DNA of 64,000 bases from Streptomyces sp. L2 (GTDB taxonomy: Bacteria; Actinomycetota; Actinomycetes; Streptomycetales; Streptomycetaceae): the NCBI RefSeq assembly GCF_004124325.1, contig NZ_QBDT01000001.1, positions 6,448,001 through 6,512,000 on the forward strand. Reading direction: 5' to 3'. Of the stretch, positions 57,733 through 63,956 are shown piece after piece. A model generated the notes under the pieces. The model did not search any database. It saw only the letters and a list, made by a program, of their open reading frames with translations, and was not told where the DNA came from. Position 1 is the stretch's first letter, and each line of letters opens with the position of its first letter. Made by a program: the position numbers and the translations under genes.

Positions 57733-58386
57733 GTGATCTTCCGCAGCCGGCGGGCAATCCCCTGGCGGTGGTCGGCCGTATACACAGGTGTGTCGGGTTT
57801 CCGGTTCCCCGTCGGGCGCCTCCCGGACGAGGCTCTCCTCTCCGGGCTGTCCACGGGCGACCCGGAACTCGCGGTCACCTTCGTACGGAGGTTCCAGCAC
57901 CGCGTCTTCGGTGTCGCCATGGCCGTCACCGGGGACCGGCAGCTCGCCGAGGACATCGCCCAGCAGACCTTCGAACGGGCCTGGCGCCACGCGCAGATCT
58001 ACGACCCGCGCCGCGGCTCGGTCACGACCTGGCTGACGACCATCGCGCACAACCTCGCCATCGACGCCGTCCGCGCCCGCCGGACGCAGCCGGTGCCGCC
58101 CGAGGACCTGGACGCGCTCCTCGGCATCGTCACCGAGACCCCCGAGCGGTGGGCGCTGGCCGACGAGGCCTCCGCCCAGCTCCGGGCCGCCGTGGCGCGG
58201 CTGCCGCGGGAACAGGCTCGTGCCCTGGTGATGGCGGGCATCTACGGCCTGACGGCCCAGCAGGTCGCCGACTCCGAAGGCATCCCGCTGGGCACCGCCA
58301 AGACGCGGATACGGGCCGCGATGGGCAAGCTGAGGACCACGCTCGCGGCACCGGGGCCGCAGAGCCGAGGCGACCATGACCAGTGA
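57733..58386 (+). CDS. ECF RNA polymerase sigma factor (SigK-like)
   Basis: A 217-aa ECF sigma factor paired with an RskA-like anti-sigma, so a SigK-type stress response system. Region 2 is YDPRRGSVTTWLTTIAHNLA preceded by FVRRFQHRVFGVA; region 4 has ALVMAGIYGLTAQQVADSEG and IPLGTAKTRIRAAMGKLR. GTG 57733 gives about 20 extra residues; GTG 57790 (VSGFRFPV) is another possible start. The anti-sigma overlaps by 11 bp. Activating signal unknown; possibly envelope or redox stress. Confidence 0.92.
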   Translation: MIFRSRRAIPWRWSAVYTGVSGFRFPVGRLPDEALLSGLSTGDPELAVTFVRRFQHRVFGVAMAVTGDRQLAEDIAQQTFERAWRHAQIYDPRRGSVTTWLTTIAHNLAIDAVRARRTQPVPPEDLDALLGIVTETPERWALADEASAQLRAAVARLPREQARALVMAGIYGLTAQQVADSEGIPLGTAKTRIRAAMGKLRTTLAAPGPQSRGDHDQ

Positions 58387-59155
58387 CGTGACCTGCGAGA
58401 GGGTACGGGCGTACGGCGCCGAGCTGGCGCTGGGCGTGCTGCCCGGCCGGGAACGCGCCGAGACGGTCGCCCACCTGGACCGGTGCGCGGACTGCCGGGA
58501 GCACGTCGGGCAGCTCACCCTGATCGGCGACCGGCTGATCGGCCTGCTCCCGGACCGCGAACCACCGCTCGGGTTCGAGTCCCGGGCGGCGCTCCGCATG
58601 ACCCCGGCCGCGCCGACGCTCCAGGAACGCCCGCAGCCCCGCGGCCCCGGACGGCTGCGCCAGGGCCTGCGGGGACCCGCCCGGCGTGCCCGGCTGCGGA
58701 TCGCGTCGGCCGCGGTGGCCGCGGCGGTCGTCTGCGGCTTCGGCGGCTGGGCCGTCGGCACCGCCGTCGAACAGGTCGCGTCCTCCTCGACGGCCTCGTC
58801 CGCCGTGGAGTCCGAACCCCTGCTGGTCGGTGACCTCACCACGCCGGGCGGCCGCGGCCGGTCCGTCGGCGAGGTCTACGCCCACCCCGGCAGCCCCGGC
58901 TGGATCTTCGTGTCCCTCGACGCGGCCGCCTCGGGCACGCCGTACACCGGCCGGGTCGTCTGCCTGCTGGAGCACACCGACGGCAGCTCCGTCCGCGTCG
59001 GTGACTTCGCGGTACGCGACGGGCACGGCGAGTGGGGCGTGGCGGCCCACGTCGACCCCGCCGCGCTGTCCGGCGCCCGCCTGCTGTCCACGGGCGGCAC
59101 GCTCCTGGCCCGGGCCCAGTTGCAGACCGGGCACATCCAGACCCCGGCGGACTGA
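58376..59155 (+). CDS. Membrane anti-sigma factor, RskA-like with zinc-binding domain
   Basis: A 259-aa protein that should hold the ECF sigma factor at the membrane until a signal causes release. The N-terminal zinc domain has HLDRCADCREHVGQL (H-x3-C-x2-C, residues about 33-41), a helix region to ~residue 90, a transmembrane helix (SAAVAAAVVCGFGGWAVGTA, about 112) and an extracytoplasmic RskA/DUF domain (VFVSLDAAASGTPYTGRVVC). ATG in the sigma gene. It is the last gene of its unit; the next gene converges 19 bp away. Confidence 0.9.
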   Translation: MTSDVTCERVRAYGAELALGVLPGRERAETVAHLDRCADCREHVGQLTLIGDRLIGLLPDREPPLGFESRAALRMTPAAPTLQERPQPRGPGRLRQGLRGPARRARLRIASAAVAAAVVCGFGGWAVGTAVEQVASSSTASSAVESEPLLVGDLTTPGGRGRSVGEVYAHPGSPGWIFVSLDAAASGTPYTGRVVCLLEHTDGSSVRVGDFAVRDGHGEWGVAAHVDPAALSGARLLSTGGTLLARAQLQTGHIQTPAD

Positions 59156-59174: not shown

Positions 59175-60107
59175 TCAGACGCGGGGAGCGGGGCGCTGCC
59201 GGACGGGGAGGGTCGCGTCGAGGGCGGCGGCCAGCGCGGCGACGATGGGCCGGGACGCCGGGTCGGGCAGCAGACAGCGGTCGATGGCGGCGGCCAGCGC
59301 GGACGGCAGCCGGCGCCGGGACACGACCGGCGGGGCGCTCTCCTCCAGCTGGGGATACCAGTCGCCGGGACCGTCACCGAACGGGCCGCCGCCGCTCCCG
59401 CCGTCGGAGTCGTCCCCGCCGTCCGAGTCGTCCGGGTCGTCCACGGTCTCGCCGGGGTCGAACGGCACGTCACCGCAGGCGACCTCGAACAACGTGACGC
59501 CGATGCCCCACACGTCGGCGGCGGCCGTCAGCGGCCCGCCGCGGGCCTGCTCCGGCGAGAGGTAGCCGAACGTGCCCAGCCCGGCCGGCGCCGGACCGGG
59601 GGGCCGCGCCACGCTGAGATCGAGCACCTTCGCGTGCCCGCGGTCCACCACCACGTTGGACGGCTTCAGGTCCAGGTGCAGCAGGCCCCGGCCGTGCAGG
59701 TAGTGGACCGCCGAGCACAACTGCACGCCGAGCAGCGCCACGTCGGCGGCGGACGGCCGGCGCCGCAGCCGGTCCACCAGGTGGGACAGCGTCTCCCCGG
59801 TCAGGGTCTCCAGGACCACGAGCGGCTCGGGGCCGTCGAAGGCGTCGTAGCCGCGTACCAGGTGCGGATGGCTGAACTCGCGCAGCCAGCGGCCCTCCCG
59901 CAGCAGCCGTCCGGTCATCCGCGGCTCGTTCCGCCGGTCGGGCCGCACGACCTTGACCACGCACCGGCAGTCCCGCTCCGCGCTCCAGGCGTCGTACACG
60001 TCGAGCCAGCCGGTGCGGGTGAGGTGGGCGAGGATCTGGTAGCCGGGGGCCGGCCGGGCGCCCGGGGCCAGGAGTGGCGGGGCCCGCCGGACGCTGGAGA
60101 CGCTCAC
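59175..60107 (-). CDS. Serine/threonine protein kinase in a peptide-ABC-kinase operon
   Basis: A 310-aa cytoplasmic kinase with no membrane anchor. The nucleotide loop is relaxed (LTRTGWLDVYDA), the Lys that binds ATP is Lys52 (CVVKVVRP), the catalytic loop is LLHLDLKPSN (Asp146), but the DFG is VLDLSVA and the APE is LSPEQA. An acidic low-complexity insert (DDPDDSDGGDDSDGG) lies near the C-terminal lobe. GTG 60107 overlaps the ABC transporter stop by 4 bp, so synthesis is coupled. A role in modifying or regulating the small peptide or the exporter is proposed. Confidence 0.85.
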   Translation of the reverse strand: MSVSSVRRAPPLLAPGARPAPGYQILAHLTRTGWLDVYDAWSAERDCRCVVKVVRPDRRNEPRMTGRLLREGRWLREFSHPHLVRGYDAFDGPEPLVVLETLTGETLSHLVDRLRRRPSAADVALLGVQLCSAVHYLHGRGLLHLDLKPSNVVVDRGHAKVLDLSVARPPGPAPAGLGTFGYLSPEQARGGPLTAAADVWGIGVTLFEVACGDVPFDPGETVDDPDDSDGGDDSDGGSGGGPFGDGPGDWYPQLEESAPPVVSRRRLPSALAAAIDRCLLPDPASRPIVAALAAALDATLPVRQRPAPRV

Positions 60108-61951
60108 GACAGCACCTTCTTGCCGTCGGGGAGCCCGGTCATGGCGTTCAGCCGGTGCAGGCGGGCGTACGGTCCCTCGTGCCGGAGCAGGTCCTCGTGG
60201 GCGCCCTGTTCGACGACCCGCCCCTGGTCGAGGACGACGACGCGGTCGGCGTCCCGGACGGTGAGCAGGTTGTGGGAGATGACGACCGTGGTCCGCCCGG
60301 CCATCAGCCGGCGCAGCGGGTCCATGATCCGCCGCCCGGAGCGGACGTCGAGCCCGGTGGTCGGCTCGTCGAGCAGCAGCACGGGCGCGTCCCTGATCAT
60401 CGCGCGGGCGATCGCCAGGCGCTGGCACTGGCCGCCGGACAGGGTCCGGCCGCGCTGGCCGACCAGGGTGTCGTAGCCCGCCGGGAGGCGCTCGACGAAC
60501 GCGTGGGCGTCCGCCGCGCGGGCCGCGGCGACGATCTCCGCGTCGGTCGCTCCCGGCCGGCCGTAGGCGATGTTCTCGCGCACGGTGCCGTGGAAGACGA
60601 GGGTCTCCTGCAGCACCACCGCGACGCTCTCCCGCACGTCGGTGAGGCGCAGCTCGCGCAGGTCGGTCCCGTCGAGGAGGACGGCTCCCCGGTCGGGGTC
60701 GTAGAAGCGCAGTTGGAGCTTGGCGACGGTCGACTTGCCGGCGCCGCTGGCCCCGACCAGCGCCAGGGTCTCGCCCGGCGCGACGTGGAAGGAGACGTCC
60801 GTCAGGGCCCAGGCCGGTGAGCCCGGATAGCGGAAGCCGACACCGTCGAAGGCCACCTCGCCCCGTACCCGGCCGGTCCGCCGGGCGCCCGTGGCCTCGG
60901 CGACCTGGGGCCGCTGGTCCAGGAGTTCGATGATGCGTTCGGCCGAGGCGGAGGCCGCGTAGAAGGTGGTCCCGAGGTGGGACAGGGAGCGCACCGGGCT
61001 GTACAGCTTGGTGATGAGGGCCAGGAAGACCAGCAGCCCGCCCAGCGTGAGCTGGCCCTGGGCGAGCTTCCAGGTGCCCAGCCCCATGACCGCGAGACCG
61101 CCGGACACCTCGATGATCTCGACGACGGGACCGTAGACGGCACGGATCCGCGCCGACGCCATCGCCGCCCGGAACCGGCCCTCGTTCTCCGTGTCGAACC
61201 GGCGCTCCTCCCACTCCTGCCGGTTGTACGCCTGCACCAGCGCGACGTTGCCCAGCGACTCCTCGGCGATGGCGCTGATCGAGCCGCTGCGCCGTCTGCG
61301 TTCCCGCGAGGCGTCCTTGATCAGCCGGGAGAAGTGCCGGGCGGCGGCCCAGAACAGCGGCACGATGAACAGGGCGAGCAGGGTCAGGTCCCAGCGCAGG
61401 TAGACCAGCAGCCCGAGGAAGACGCCGAGCCGGACCACGTAGTAGAGGGCGTTCGCGACGCCCGAGAGCAGGAACGTCTCGACCGCGTCGACGTCGCCGG
61501 TGACCCGGGACAGCACGTCCCCGAGCCGGCGGCGCTCGAAGAAGCCGAGGGAGAGGCCCTGGACGTGCCGGAACACGTCGGAGCGCAGCCCGAGCAGGAA
61601 CCGTTCGCTGACCCAGGTGGAGGTGACGTCGTCCGCGTAGCCGAGGGCGCCCGAGCAGATGATGAGGCCCAGGTAGGCCGGTGCGATCCACAGGAAGGGA
61701 TGCAGGTCCCGGGGGACGAGCACCTCGTCCACGACGACCTTGAACAGCCAGATCTCCGCCGCGTCCACGCACGGGCCGATGAGGCTGAACAGGAGGATCG
61801 GCGCGAACCAGCGCCGGCCGCCCCGGGTGTAGGGCCAGAACCTCCGGAACACCTCGCGCAGCGGCACCGGGGGCGCCGCCGCGACCACGGCGTCGGAGGA
61901 CGACCGCGGAGCGGACCGGGTCCTCCGGACTCCGGTCCGCTCAGCCGGCAT
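60104..61951 (-). CDS. ABC exporter-type half transporter (membrane and ATPase fused)
   Basis: A 615-aa half transporter of the type exporting peptides, lipids or drugs; functions as a dimer. Six membrane helices (about residues 45-330) precede an ATPase with Walker A GASGAGKST, signature LSGGQCQRLAIARAM, Walker B VLLLDEPTTGLD and H-loop VVISHNLLT. There is no N-terminal peptidase domain. The ATG at 61951 is 6 bp after the 49-residue peptide stop, so it is transcribed with it; the kinase follows. Best guess is export of, or immunity to, the peptide product. Confidence 0.9.
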   Translation of the reverse strand: MPAERTGVRRTRSAPRSSSDAVVAAAPPVPLREVFRRFWPYTRGGRRWFAPILLFSLIGPCVDAAEIWLFKVVVDEVLVPRDLHPFLWIAPAYLGLIICSGALGYADDVTSTWVSERFLLGLRSDVFRHVQGLSLGFFERRRLGDVLSRVTGDVDAVETFLLSGVANALYYVVRLGVFLGLLVYLRWDLTLLALFIVPLFWAAARHFSRLIKDASRERRRRSGSISAIAEESLGNVALVQAYNRQEWEERRFDTENEGRFRAAMASARIRAVYGPVVEIIEVSGGLAVMGLGTWKLAQGQLTLGGLLVFLALITKLYSPVRSLSHLGTTFYAASASAERIIELLDQRPQVAEATGARRTGRVRGEVAFDGVGFRYPGSPAWALTDVSFHVAPGETLALVGASGAGKSTVAKLQLRFYDPDRGAVLLDGTDLRELRLTDVRESVAVVLQETLVFHGTVRENIAYGRPGATDAEIVAAARAADAHAFVERLPAGYDTLVGQRGRTLSGGQCQRLAIARAMIRDAPVLLLDEPTTGLDVRSGRRIMDPLRRLMAGRTTVVISHNLLTVRDADRVVVLDQGRVVEQGAHEDLLRHEGPYARLHRLNAMTGLPDGKKVLS

Positions 61952-61957
61952 GTGTGG

Positions 61958-62107
61958 TCACCACTTGTGACCCGAGTTGTTGTGGCGGTTCGTCCGGCGA
62001 CGCCGACGCTGCCTGCGCATCGACGTGTCGTCGACCTGAGAGGTCGTGTCCTTTCCGTTGCGATCGTGGCCGAACTTGGCCGGGAAGAGACTGCTGAAGA
62101 TCGCCAT
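61958..62107 (-). CDS. Arg-rich 49-residue peptide, unknown function
   Basis: A short gene with strong support: perfect GGGAGG ribosome binding site at 62114-62120, spacing of 6 bp to ATG, and tight linkage to the exporter gene. The product has a hydrophobic start (MAIFSSLFPAKF), a Ser/Thr/Asp middle (DTTSQVDDTS) that could accept phosphates, and a strongly basic C-terminus (RRQRRRRRTNRHNN, then SGHKW). Nine Arg, no Cys, so not a lanthipeptide precursor. It resembles arginine-rich nucleic-acid-binding or membrane-active peptides, but I know of no family. Its translation is predicted to be controlled by the upstream inverted repeat. Confidence 0.75.
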   Translation of the reverse strand: MAIFSSLFPAKFGHDRNGKDTTSQVDDTSMRRQRRRRRTNRHNNSGHKW

Positions 62108-62111
62108 GGTG

Positions 62112-62191
62112 TTCCTCCCGAAACATGCGACACCTGTGATACGAGGCAGGAGTGCGCCCGGATGGCCAATCAGGTGAAATTTCGGGAGGAA
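62112..62191 (-). promoter_or_regulatory. Leader with 12-bp inverted repeat burying the peptide gene's RBS
   Basis: On the minus-strand RNA the 5' arm is the complement of 62180-62191 (UUCCUCCCGAAA) and the 3' arm the complement of 62112-62123 (UUUCGGGAGGAA), perfect over 12 bp, 56 nt apart. The 3' arm contains the GGGAGG of the peptide gene and ends 4 nt before AUG. A second stem CACCUG/CAGGUG (62171-62176 and 62131-62136) lies within. This is a strong candidate for a translation-control switch. Confidence 0.7.
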
Positions 62192-62235: not shown

Positions 62236-63039
62236 TCAGCCCAGCCGGTCGGCCAGTCCCGCGGTGCAGCGGACCTCGTCGCCCGCCGTGATCAGCAGGG
62301 CCTCCACGTCCGGCAGGGACTCCAGCCAGGCGAGGCCGGCTCGCGACCCCATCGCGAAGGCGGCCGTGGCCCAGCAGTCCACGAAGGTCAGGCGGGGGCC
62401 CACCACGGTGACCGAGACCAGGTCCGTGACCGCCGAGCGGCCGGTGCGCGGGTCGACGATGTGGTCCCCGCGCTCCGCCGTGCCCGATGTCGCCACCGAC
62501 AACTCGGCCACCCCCGCGGCCGAGATCACCGCCGCCAGCCCGCCCGGCCGGAGCGGATCGGCCACCCCGATCCGCCACGGCCGCTGCGGCTCCGGCGCAC
62601 CCAGCATCTGCACATCCCCGCCGCCGTTGACGCTGACCCCGCACACCCCGTCGACCTCGGCCAGCTCCCGCGCGGCCCGCTCCGCGGACCAGCCCTTGAC
62701 GATGCCGGTCGGGTCGAGCGAGCCCCGGTACCGGGTGCTGAACCAGCCCTCGCTCAGCCGCTCCGCCTCGGCCGCCAGCTCCAGCACCTCGGTGACGTCG
62801 GGGGAGCAGTCGCCCAGAGCCAGTTCGCCCCGGGCGAGCCGGGACACCTCGCTGTCCGGCCGGTAGGTGCTGAACAGCGCGTCGGCCCGGTGCAGGCCCG
62901 CGACCGCCTCCTGGAGCGCGGCCCGTACGGCACCGGGTTCCCCGCCGCGGACGTCGAAGGAGAAGACGGTGCCCATGACCTCCTCCGCGTGCCGCACCGC
63001 GACGGGAGTGCCGTCCGGCCCCGCCGCCGGGTCAGACAC
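62236..63039 (-). CDS. apbE: FAD:protein FMN transferase ApbE
   Basis: A 267-aa flavin transferase that links FMN to a Thr of a target protein, here likely its operon partner. GTG 63039. Motifs: VMGTVFSFDVRG, LFSTYRPDSEVSRLARGE, LDPTGIVKGWSAER and VNGGGDVQMLG, with HIVDPRTGRSAVTDLVSVTV binding divalent metal. No lipobox or signal peptide, so it acts in the cytoplasm or as a fusion-free enzyme. Overlaps the FMN-bind gene by 8 bp, and downstream lies the peptide cassette. Confidence 0.93.
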   Translation of the reverse strand: MSDPAAGPDGTPVAVRHAEEVMGTVFSFDVRGGEPGAVRAALQEAVAGLHRADALFSTYRPDSEVSRLARGELALGDCSPDVTEVLELAAEAERLSEGWFSTRYRGSLDPTGIVKGWSAERAARELAEVDGVCGVSVNGGGDVQMLGAPEPQRPWRIGVADPLRPGGLAAVISAAGVAELSVATSGTAERGDHIVDPRTGRSAVTDLVSVTVVGPRLTFVDCWATAAFAMGSRAGLAWLESLPDVEALLITAGDEVRCTAGLADRLG

Positions 63040-63928
63040 CGGCCTGGTCCAGCGCCGACTGCAGCGACTCCTTGTACCCGTCGCTCGTGTAGGTGGCCCC
63101 GGACACGGCGTCGATGTGCGCGGACCCCGTCGTCACCGCCTCCACGTTGAGCTTCGGCACGGCGAGCGCGGTCTTCTGGTCGCTGATCCCGCCCTTGGGC
63201 GCCTGGAGTGCCTCCGCCCTGACGATCCTGCCCCCGCTGACCGTGATCCGGACCTGCACGGTCCCGTAGTCGGTCCGCACGGCCTTCCCGGTGACGGTAC
63301 GGCCCTGCGCGGAGCCGGAACCTGAACCGGAAGCTGAGCCGGAGCCGGAGCCGGAGCCGGAACCTGAACCGGAAGCTGCACCCGAGCCGGAAGCTGCACC
63401 TGAACCCGAACCGGACTTGGCACCCGACCCTGAAGGCGACCCCGCACCGGACCCGGACGAGGCCGGCTTCACCTTGTCCAGCGCCGACTGCAGCGACTCC
63501 TTGTACCCGTCGCTCGTGTACGTCGCCCCGGACACCGCGTCGATCCGCGCGCTCTGGGCCGTCACCGCCTCCTGGTTGAGCTTCGGCACGGCGAGCGCGG
63601 TCTTCTGGTCGCTGATCCCGCCCTTGGGCGCCTGCACCGCCTCCGCCTTGGTGATCTTCCCGTCGCTGACGGTGAGCCGCACCTGCACGGTCCCGTACTG
63701 GGTCTGCGTCGCGTCCCCCGTGACCGTCCCGGTGCCGCCGGGCCGTACCCCGCCCTGGGCTCCGCCCTGCGGTGACTCCTGCCCGGCCGCCGAGCGCTGC
63801 GGGGCCCCGCCGGCCGCCGTCGCCGGGGCCGCGTTGCCCGCGGGCTTCAGCGACAGCAGCAGCACGACCCCGGACACGGTGGCGGCGCCGGCCAGCACGA
63901 CACGCCGGAGGGGGTGGCTCTTCCTCAT
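63032..63928 (-). CDS. Double FMN-binding domain protein
   Basis: An exported or membrane-anchored 298-aa protein with two FMN_bind domains, each having the [13 protein letters not shown] motif whose Thr receives covalent FMN from ApbE. The N-terminus is one hydrophobic segment ([18 protein letters not shown], about residues 10-27). The domains are joined by a Ser/Gly/Ala linker ([12 protein letters not shown]) encoded by hexanucleotide repeats. The two domains are nearly identical, including [19 protein letters not shown] 63928 is preferred over the TTG nine bases upstream. Partner of an adjacent flavin reductase. Confidence 0.88.
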
Positions 63929-63956
63929 CTCTTCCAAGCTCCCGTTCGTCCGTCGC

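Follow-up and report, generated by a model that had tools for sequence, protein, structure and literature searches.

What a stand-alone protein kinase does in an operon with a short peptide and a transporter is the question raised by a locus of Streptomyces sp. L2, which we examined in a window of 64 kb (NZ_QBDT01000001.1, 6,448,001 to 6,512,000; all coordinates below are positions in this window). Three genes, all on the minus strand, encode a 49-aa peptide (61958..62107), an ATP-binding cassette (ABC) half transporter of 615 aa (60104..61951) and, from a GTG start, a Hanks-type serine/threonine (Ser/Thr) kinase of 310 aa (59175..60107). Comparison of sequences among relatives makes it likely, in our view, that this is an exported phosphopeptide operon, in which the kinase would phosphorylate the peptide, the ABC protein would export it and a linked extracytoplasmic function (ECF) sigma factor would switch the system on.

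The original prediction had described a three-gene operon here, and its coordinates, the 49-aa Cys-free product, the strong ribosome-binding site (RBS), the 6-bp gap and the 4-bp overlap are all confirmed in the sequence. The RBS, GGGAGGA (62113..62119, minus strand), was read within the stretch TTTCGGGAGGAACACC preceding the ATG, and GGAGG-type sites also lie 5' of the open reading frame (ORF) in relatives. The hydrophobic conserved start, MAIFSSLFPA, is followed by a variable low-complexity tail whose Asp-containing centre holds T21-T22-S23 and T28-S29, with RRQRRRRR at residues 31-38. The ABC gene begins 6 bp past the peptide stop. Its product, the proposed exporter, has a membrane domain and an ATPase domain (PF00664 1.1e-45, PF00005 6.4e-34); no peptidase C39 family was listed for it in the Pfam scan, and its top NCBIfam matches are MsbA-type models, every one under its cut-off. 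The kinase matches PF00069 (1.1e-30) and no second Pfam domain. Its gene shares 4 bp with the ABC gene, and the same start/stop overlap occurs in 68 of 68 readable kinase-bearing relatives (6 further ones were not read).

Is the peptide a constant member of this unit? Among the best 80 of 133 relatives found by a membrane-domain alignment scan of named genomes, a short ORF lies 5' of the ABC gene in every locus. It is intact in 79 of them, with 39-83 codons and always ATG; the sole broken copy, L079, is frame-shifted and has ATT where the start belongs. These 79 loci bear out the predicted dedicated peptide-exporter-kinase unit. An unconserved or interrupted peptide ORF in relatives would have spoken against it; the ORF is conserved, and the unit is also present in G295, a genome of another family.

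The evidence on what the kinase acts upon comes from loci without it. A first hint was that the peptides of the kinase-less G003 and G275 have no Ser/Thr past residue 10. In a set of 96 loci, at least two tail Ser/Thr are found in all 74 kinase-bearing loci, while 16 of the 22 kinase-less loci have one or none (11 of these zero). Kinase state changes at least 12 times on the exporter (ABC) tree, indicating repeated loss. Among 11 tree-independent pairs, a mean of 7.3 lie in the expected direction and none in the opposite one (median sign-test p 0.016; 0.008-0.031); a plain Fisher value (1e-13) takes no account of relatedness and is not to be relied on. Tree-corrected regression likewise gave a higher Ser/Thr fraction with the kinase (p 0.027 with lambda fitted, 0.066 for a Brownian model) and more Asp without it (p 0.0027 and 0.032, respectively), the Asp result being unpredicted and uncorrected for the number of residues tried. 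Threonine alone gave p 0.009. A prediction fixed before new genomes were fetched was fitted by seven of seven new kinase-bearing Streptomyces loci and by G295; the five new kinase-less loci comprised two duplicates, two that fit (G444 with no Ser/Thr, G364 with one) and one miss (G328, with three), which resembles the exception L103. Since Ser/Thr tends to vanish when the kinase is lost, the peptide is suggested as the kinase target. The original prediction had allowed either a phosphorylated or an unmodified peptide, and this repeated joint loss lends support to the former.

The 96-locus set was obtained by removing 20 and 18 duplicates by exact ABC sequence only, so close relatives are still in it. 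L072 (no peptide found by a partial ABC gene), L079 (no standard start in the frame-shifted peptide, kinase broken), L102 (truncated kinase), L114 and L152 (contig ends) and L238 (no ABC gene) were left out. L078 was counted as kinase-bearing and L085, where kinase remnants are still visible, as kinase-less. Absence of the kinase means absence by tblastn over the fetched stretches; for G519, G328, G444, G410, G364 and G275 no kinase match was found elsewhere in the genome, provided that these genomes were in the 391-genome draw described below, as their handle numbers suggest.

Where the kinase is present, tails of more positive net charge have more Ser/Thr (t 6.3, p 2e-8), and Asn, Tyr and Phe show no such rise. 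Ser/Thr peaks at residues 19 and 20 (44 of 74 loci each), with a weaker second peak at 25-28. From these peaks, T21-T22-S23 (62039..62047, minus strand) is the candidate main phosphorylation cluster of the window peptide and T28-S29 (62021..62026, minus strand) the candidate second one. The nearest solved relatives of the window kinase are StkP and PknB. The catalytic Lys, Asp (of HxD) and Asn and the metal-binding Asp are retained in 60 of 60 aligned relatives, which were picked by a motif in which the catalytic position may be D, E or N. Among 14 other kinases, 12 have a continuous frame with the catalytic residues, L078 has the core and L104 was not read. Before WYPQLE (window residues about 220-250) the kinases carry a variable Asp/Glu/Ser/Gly-rich insert, an acidic stretch on which a basic peptide might dock. 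The kinase of L020 (G146) has N-terminal Thr-rich repeats (GTNFVTHESSLGTGAVTGE).

An interesting question is how expression of the operon is controlled. Downstream of the kinase, on the plus strand and converging with the operon, lie an ECF sigma factor (57733..58386; PF04542 3.5e-20; PRK09646 SigK model 3.1e-30, under cut-off) and a zf-HC2 anti-sigma factor (58376..59155; PF13490 1.2e-4; NF052375 8.8e-15, under cut-off). The motif CCATCC-N16-CGTA at 62140..62165 (minus strand) is the putative promoter of the peptide operon and the likely target of this sigma factor. The same motif recurs as CAATCC-N16-CGTA where the sigma gene begins (57755..57780, plus strand), and there it probably serves autoregulation. 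CMATCC-N16-CGTA matches only these two places in the window, versus 0.13 matches expected by chance, and GCCATCC-N14..18-CGTAT has two matches in the organism's own 8.07-Mb genome, one of which is the peptide promoter. A search of 15 genomes with CCATCC-N16-CGTAT returned 18 sites in 12 of them, of which 8 are by position the unit's peptide promoter, and a reversed control returned 2. Of 95 regions upstream of the peptide gene, 87 contain the motif (86 with a spacer of 16, one with 17; 200 mononucleotide shuffles gave a mean of 0.36 and a maximum of 2), and it is also found at the sigma start in all nine further sigma loci examined. No sigma-70-type promoter was seen at the operon start. The simplest reading of the shared motif is that the sigma factor likely drives both the peptide operon and its own gene. 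The motif falls inside the start of the annotated sigma ORF, with an in-frame GTG 9 nt past CGTA; the true sigma start is probably this GTG at 57790, and its position suggests a leaderless sigma message.

The presence of this pair offers the kinase another partner, since Hanks-type kinases often regulate transcription factors: it could target the sigma/anti-sigma pair, or else the ABC protein, with the peptide not a substrate at all. The sigma gene neighbours the kinase and is present in 63 of the 80 loci. We consider this explanation unlikely, as loci without the kinase still have the sigma gene (19 of 22), the promoter motif (20 of 22) and the exporter, and so are not decaying, and it is the Ser/Thr of the peptide that changes.

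A hairpin (GAGCGGACCGG...CCGGTCCGCTC, 61909..61942, minus strand) follows the peptide stop. It extends over the first codons of the ABC gene, which leaves the ABC start at 61951 in doubt; in most relatives the peptide-to-ABC spacer is longer than in the window and holds a conserved hairpin. A perfect stem of at least 7 occurs within 130 nt of the peptide stop in 88 of 96 loci, several of these lying inside the ABC gene and perhaps unrelated, and the median stem length over all 96 is 10 (0 for one shuffle per region). In 20 hand-chosen main-clade sequences, 6 of 12 consensus pairs are changed on both sides, with a small covariation term (-0.41 kcal/mol). The hairpin has no Rfam match and no T run, and it may stabilise the peptide message.

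What kind of peptide is made? The start is usually MAIFSxLxPA in the 80 loci, and the residues past 10 are hypervariable; in the 96-locus set Pro9 is found in 92, Ala10 in 82 and the full MAIFxx[LV]xPA start in 59. A short precursor with a conserved start and a variable core is what is seen in ribosomally synthesized and post-translationally modified peptides (RiPPs). The tails draw on few residues, with Gly, His, Arg, Asp, Ser and Thr making up 88 percent of 4486 tail residues and Ala, Val, Pro, Leu and Ile together less than 1 percent, despite the GC-rich genome. Versions among relatives include HGHGHGDRH, DHGDHGDHG, GGHGGHGGHGGY, GGYGGYGGY, RSGYGRSGY and RRRHRRRR, and the final residue is Tyr in 51 and Trp in 12 of 96. 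Since a hypervariable tail of restricted composition is the rule, the window's Arg tail is one version among many. The Arg-rich tail noted in the original prediction is not a defining trait, most relatives' tails being His/Gly/Asp-rich instead. The tail of L096, RSRSDHRSRSDHRSGSDHRS, resembles the SR-repeat domain of splicing factors, a classic eukaryotic kinase substrate. No Pfam or NCBIfam family was found for the window peptide or 47 aligned relatives, bar two weak single matches per library; a protein search with the window peptide alone returned only its own cluster, all displayed source names of homologues are hypothetical or uncharacterised protein, and no plasmid match was found.

Tails built of short, fast-changing repeats might be neutral low-complexity sequence from replication slippage, the ORF being only a translated leader. 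This is very improbable, because the ORF is intact in all but one of the 80 loci, the five aliphatic and proline residues named above are nearly absent and tail composition follows kinase presence.

Secreted peptides of this composition could instead bind Zn, Cu or Ni. Up to 20 His are found in one tail (L056), HGHG and GGH repeats are found in many, and shepherin I, a plant peptide with comparable repeats, binds Zn(II) and Cu(II) (PMC10698721). The window peptide, though, has 3 His past residue 10, and the Gly/Tyr-rich tails of L144 and L149 have none, so His metal binding is ruled out as the shared function and metal binding is an unlikely account of the family. L144 and L149 are the most divergent peptides (Gly/Tyr/Asp-rich, MAFLGQFISFGRDGGGG..., GGYGGY), having no Ser/Thr past residue 10 either, and their loci are without kinase, linked sigma gene or recognisable promoter motif.

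Somewhat less doubtful, and still improbable, is a cationic antimicrobial peptide that phosphorylation silences inside the cell and that is freed outside, the Asp-rich versions needing no kinase. Streptomycin, which is made in a phosphate form, offers an analogy, and Arg-rich tails do hold more Ser/Thr. His/Gly repeats like GGHGGHGGHGGY also resemble shepherin I (GYGGHGGHGG...), described as antimicrobial in PMC10698721. Many tails are, on the other hand, net negative before any phosphorylation, and no phosphatase or immunity gene is common to the loci at the resolution of our 30-locus neighbourhood comparison.

Returning to an exported phosphopeptide, the events may be ordered as follows. The ECF sigma factor, restrained by the anti-sigma factor, would once freed activate both its own gene and the promoter of the peptide operon, as the shared motif suggests. 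Much peptide would be made from the strong RBS, and the hairpin past the stop could hold peptide output above that of the downstream genes. The kinase would then phosphorylate tail Ser/Thr, mainly around residues 19-30, and the ABC half transporter, as a homodimer, would export the peptide by recognising its MAIFxxLxP start, to which linkage and the conserved start both point. Lineages without the kinase keep peptide, exporter and promoter, and lose most tail Ser/Thr and gain Asp, as if a fixed charge had replaced phosphate. Because tails vary freely within a narrow residue set, they would work by composition and not by exact sequence.

Outside the cell the peptide may be a matrix or droplet former, a metal binder or an antimicrobial. 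In our judgement a tail so free in sequence at fixed composition speaks for a bulk physical role more than for a receptor ligand. More specifically, these could be secreted disordered charged chains that assemble outside the cell into droplets, fibres or a metal-linked gel, their charge tuned by the dedicated kinase and Asp replacing Ser/Thr after kinase loss, which we put forward tentatively as a possibility short of being probable. If true, they would be a bacterial counterpart of the phosphorylated proteins that serve animals as adhesives or matrix, under a sigma switch of one promoter.

Several observations weigh against an exported phosphopeptide operon under sigma control. An earlier set of 85 loci had the same distribution (at least two Ser/Thr in 66 of 66 kinase-bearing loci, none or one in 14 of 19 kinase-less ones), and its test was non-significant, with 7 independent pairs on the ABC tree, 3.8 for and 0 opposite (median p 0.125). 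With serine taken by itself, the tree-corrected effect is absent (p 0.5). Six kinase-less loci retain at least two Ser/Thr (L085, L103, L219, L087, L117 and L131), of which L103 and L219 form one clade nearest a kinase-bearing sister, and the kinase of L078 is frame-shifted after the core. His and Gly fall with net charge in kinase-bearing loci, so the charge correlation is partly compositional. Five sigma-bearing genomes have no orthologous ABC gene, and 17 of the 80 loci have no linked sigma gene, some of them at contig ends. Finally, transporters of this ABC family export lipids and drugs as well, which makes the assignment of the cargo a guess.

The distribution of the unit is patchy inside Streptomyces and extends outside the genus. 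The ABC protein matched in 104 of 291 genus genomes at 1e-100, and 30 of these, as read from the table, form the orthologous group at roughly 66 percent identity or above; 28 are nearly full length, G077 is in two pieces and G191 is partial. When the kinase was searched for in 391 genomes of the order, 30 matched, comprising 29 of the same genus and G295. Besides the kinase, G295 has the ABC gene and a peptide, identified by eye, that is rich in Arg, His and Tyr, so the unit reaches beyond Streptomyces. G016 and G111 (L239, L240) have sigma and anti-sigma followed by apbE, with no ABC, kinase or peptide gene between, so the unit is gained or lost as one block; the sigma factor kept there perhaps acts at other targets or is a relic. 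In L238 (G475) a deletion took the ABC gene and the peptide start enters the kinase reading frame out of frame, a decayed copy.

Upstream of the peptide gene, also on the minus strand, are genes for ApbE (62236..63039) and an adjoining flavin mononucleotide (FMN)-binding protein (63032..63937). The original prediction had placed the peptide next to an apbE-like gene, which holds in 32 of the 80 loci; elsewhere the upstream genes differ, and neither ApbE nor the FMN-binding protein is taken as a member of the unit. They are probably a separate electron-transfer unit. The FMN-binding protein has two FMN_bind stretches with a long Ser/Gly linker between, each with one motif of the kind that we take to be flavinylated by ApbE. 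In a comparison of 30 loci, each 10-15 kb long, the genes upstream vary widely and no further shared gene cluster was found, while sigma and anti-sigma recur even with different gene order. The sigma/anti-sigma pair, which the prediction had not mentioned, is the steadier neighbour (each in 63 of the 80 loci versus 32 for ApbE).

How does this compare with known systems? Modification of a cluster-encoded peptide by a kinase is already known from lasso peptides, where, according to PMC9266682, the ribosomal precursors of paeninodin and pseudomycoidin are phosphorylated on Ser by kinases of their own clusters (PadeK and PsmK). Our system is alike in the proposed modification of a peptide by a co-encoded kinase, here put forward from joint loss. 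It differs in that lasso systems have B and C proteins and a modified C-terminal Ser, whereas the sites proposed here are internal. Neither a lasso B (protease) nor a C (cyclase) gene is among the window locus genes (ABC, kinase, sigma, anti-sigma, ApbE, FMN-binding and the argR/argD region), and we reject membership in the lasso peptides. Lasso peptide kinases are, moreover, HPr-kinase-like, unlike the PF00069 Hanks-type kinase of the window.

Class III/IV lanthipeptide systems also pair a small peptide with a kinase, and SapB-type clusters have ABC exporters lacking a peptidase domain, as here. Unlike LanKC and LanL, however, our kinase stands alone, with no fused lyase or cyclase. A lanthipeptide-like route, in which the kinase activates Ser/Thr and an unlinked lyase eliminates the phosphate, draws on the weak match of the kinase to LanL (82.5 bits). 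That score is far under the cut-off of 650 (LanKC 30.2 of 575), neither lyase nor cyclase genes turned up in the examined neighbourhood of the unit or in the conserved gene set, and Cys past residue 10 occurs in only 6 of 96 tails, so thioether rings are impossible in most. We regard this route as exceedingly unlikely, and the original view that the locus does not belong to class III/IV is upheld.

The sigma/anti-sigma pair resembles SigK/RskA-type pairs, the anti-sigma gene adjoining the sigma gene and the SigK model being among its best NCBIfam matches, at a score (105.3 of 226 bits for PRK09646) below the family cut-off. It differs in that the proposed target is a peptide export operon. We take the -35 element of mycobacterial SigK to be CCATCC, which would fit the CMATCC at the peptide and sigma genes, though this element was not found in the open-licence papers searched. 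PMC7509140 describes the sites bound by SigK as highly conserved in Actinobacteria and reports two conserved Cys in most ECF18 SigK and about half of ECF19; the translated window sigma ORF, unlike those, has no Cys.

The tails themselves are, in their GGH repeats and Tyr, strikingly near shepherin I (PMC10698721) at the GGHGGHGGHGGY ends of many of them, and armadillidin is grouped with it as a Gly/His-rich antimicrobial peptide. Both are eukaryotic and come without kinase or exporter; the resemblance is one of composition and not of descent.

No description of such a peptide-exporter-kinase system was found in the open-licence literature, subscription papers being outside the search, and we are aware of no Hanks-type kinase that stands alone and serves a secreted peptide of low complexity. 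If our reading is right, Streptomyces has a peptide system invisible to standard RiPP models, in which a stand-alone Hanks-type kinase seems dedicated to a peptide that is secreted. The natural kinase losses would be a built-in experiment, offering sister peptides with and without the kinase and with Asp in place of Ser/Thr. The linked sigma factor has very few matching promoters genome-wide and would be a simple switch for turning the system on and finding its product.

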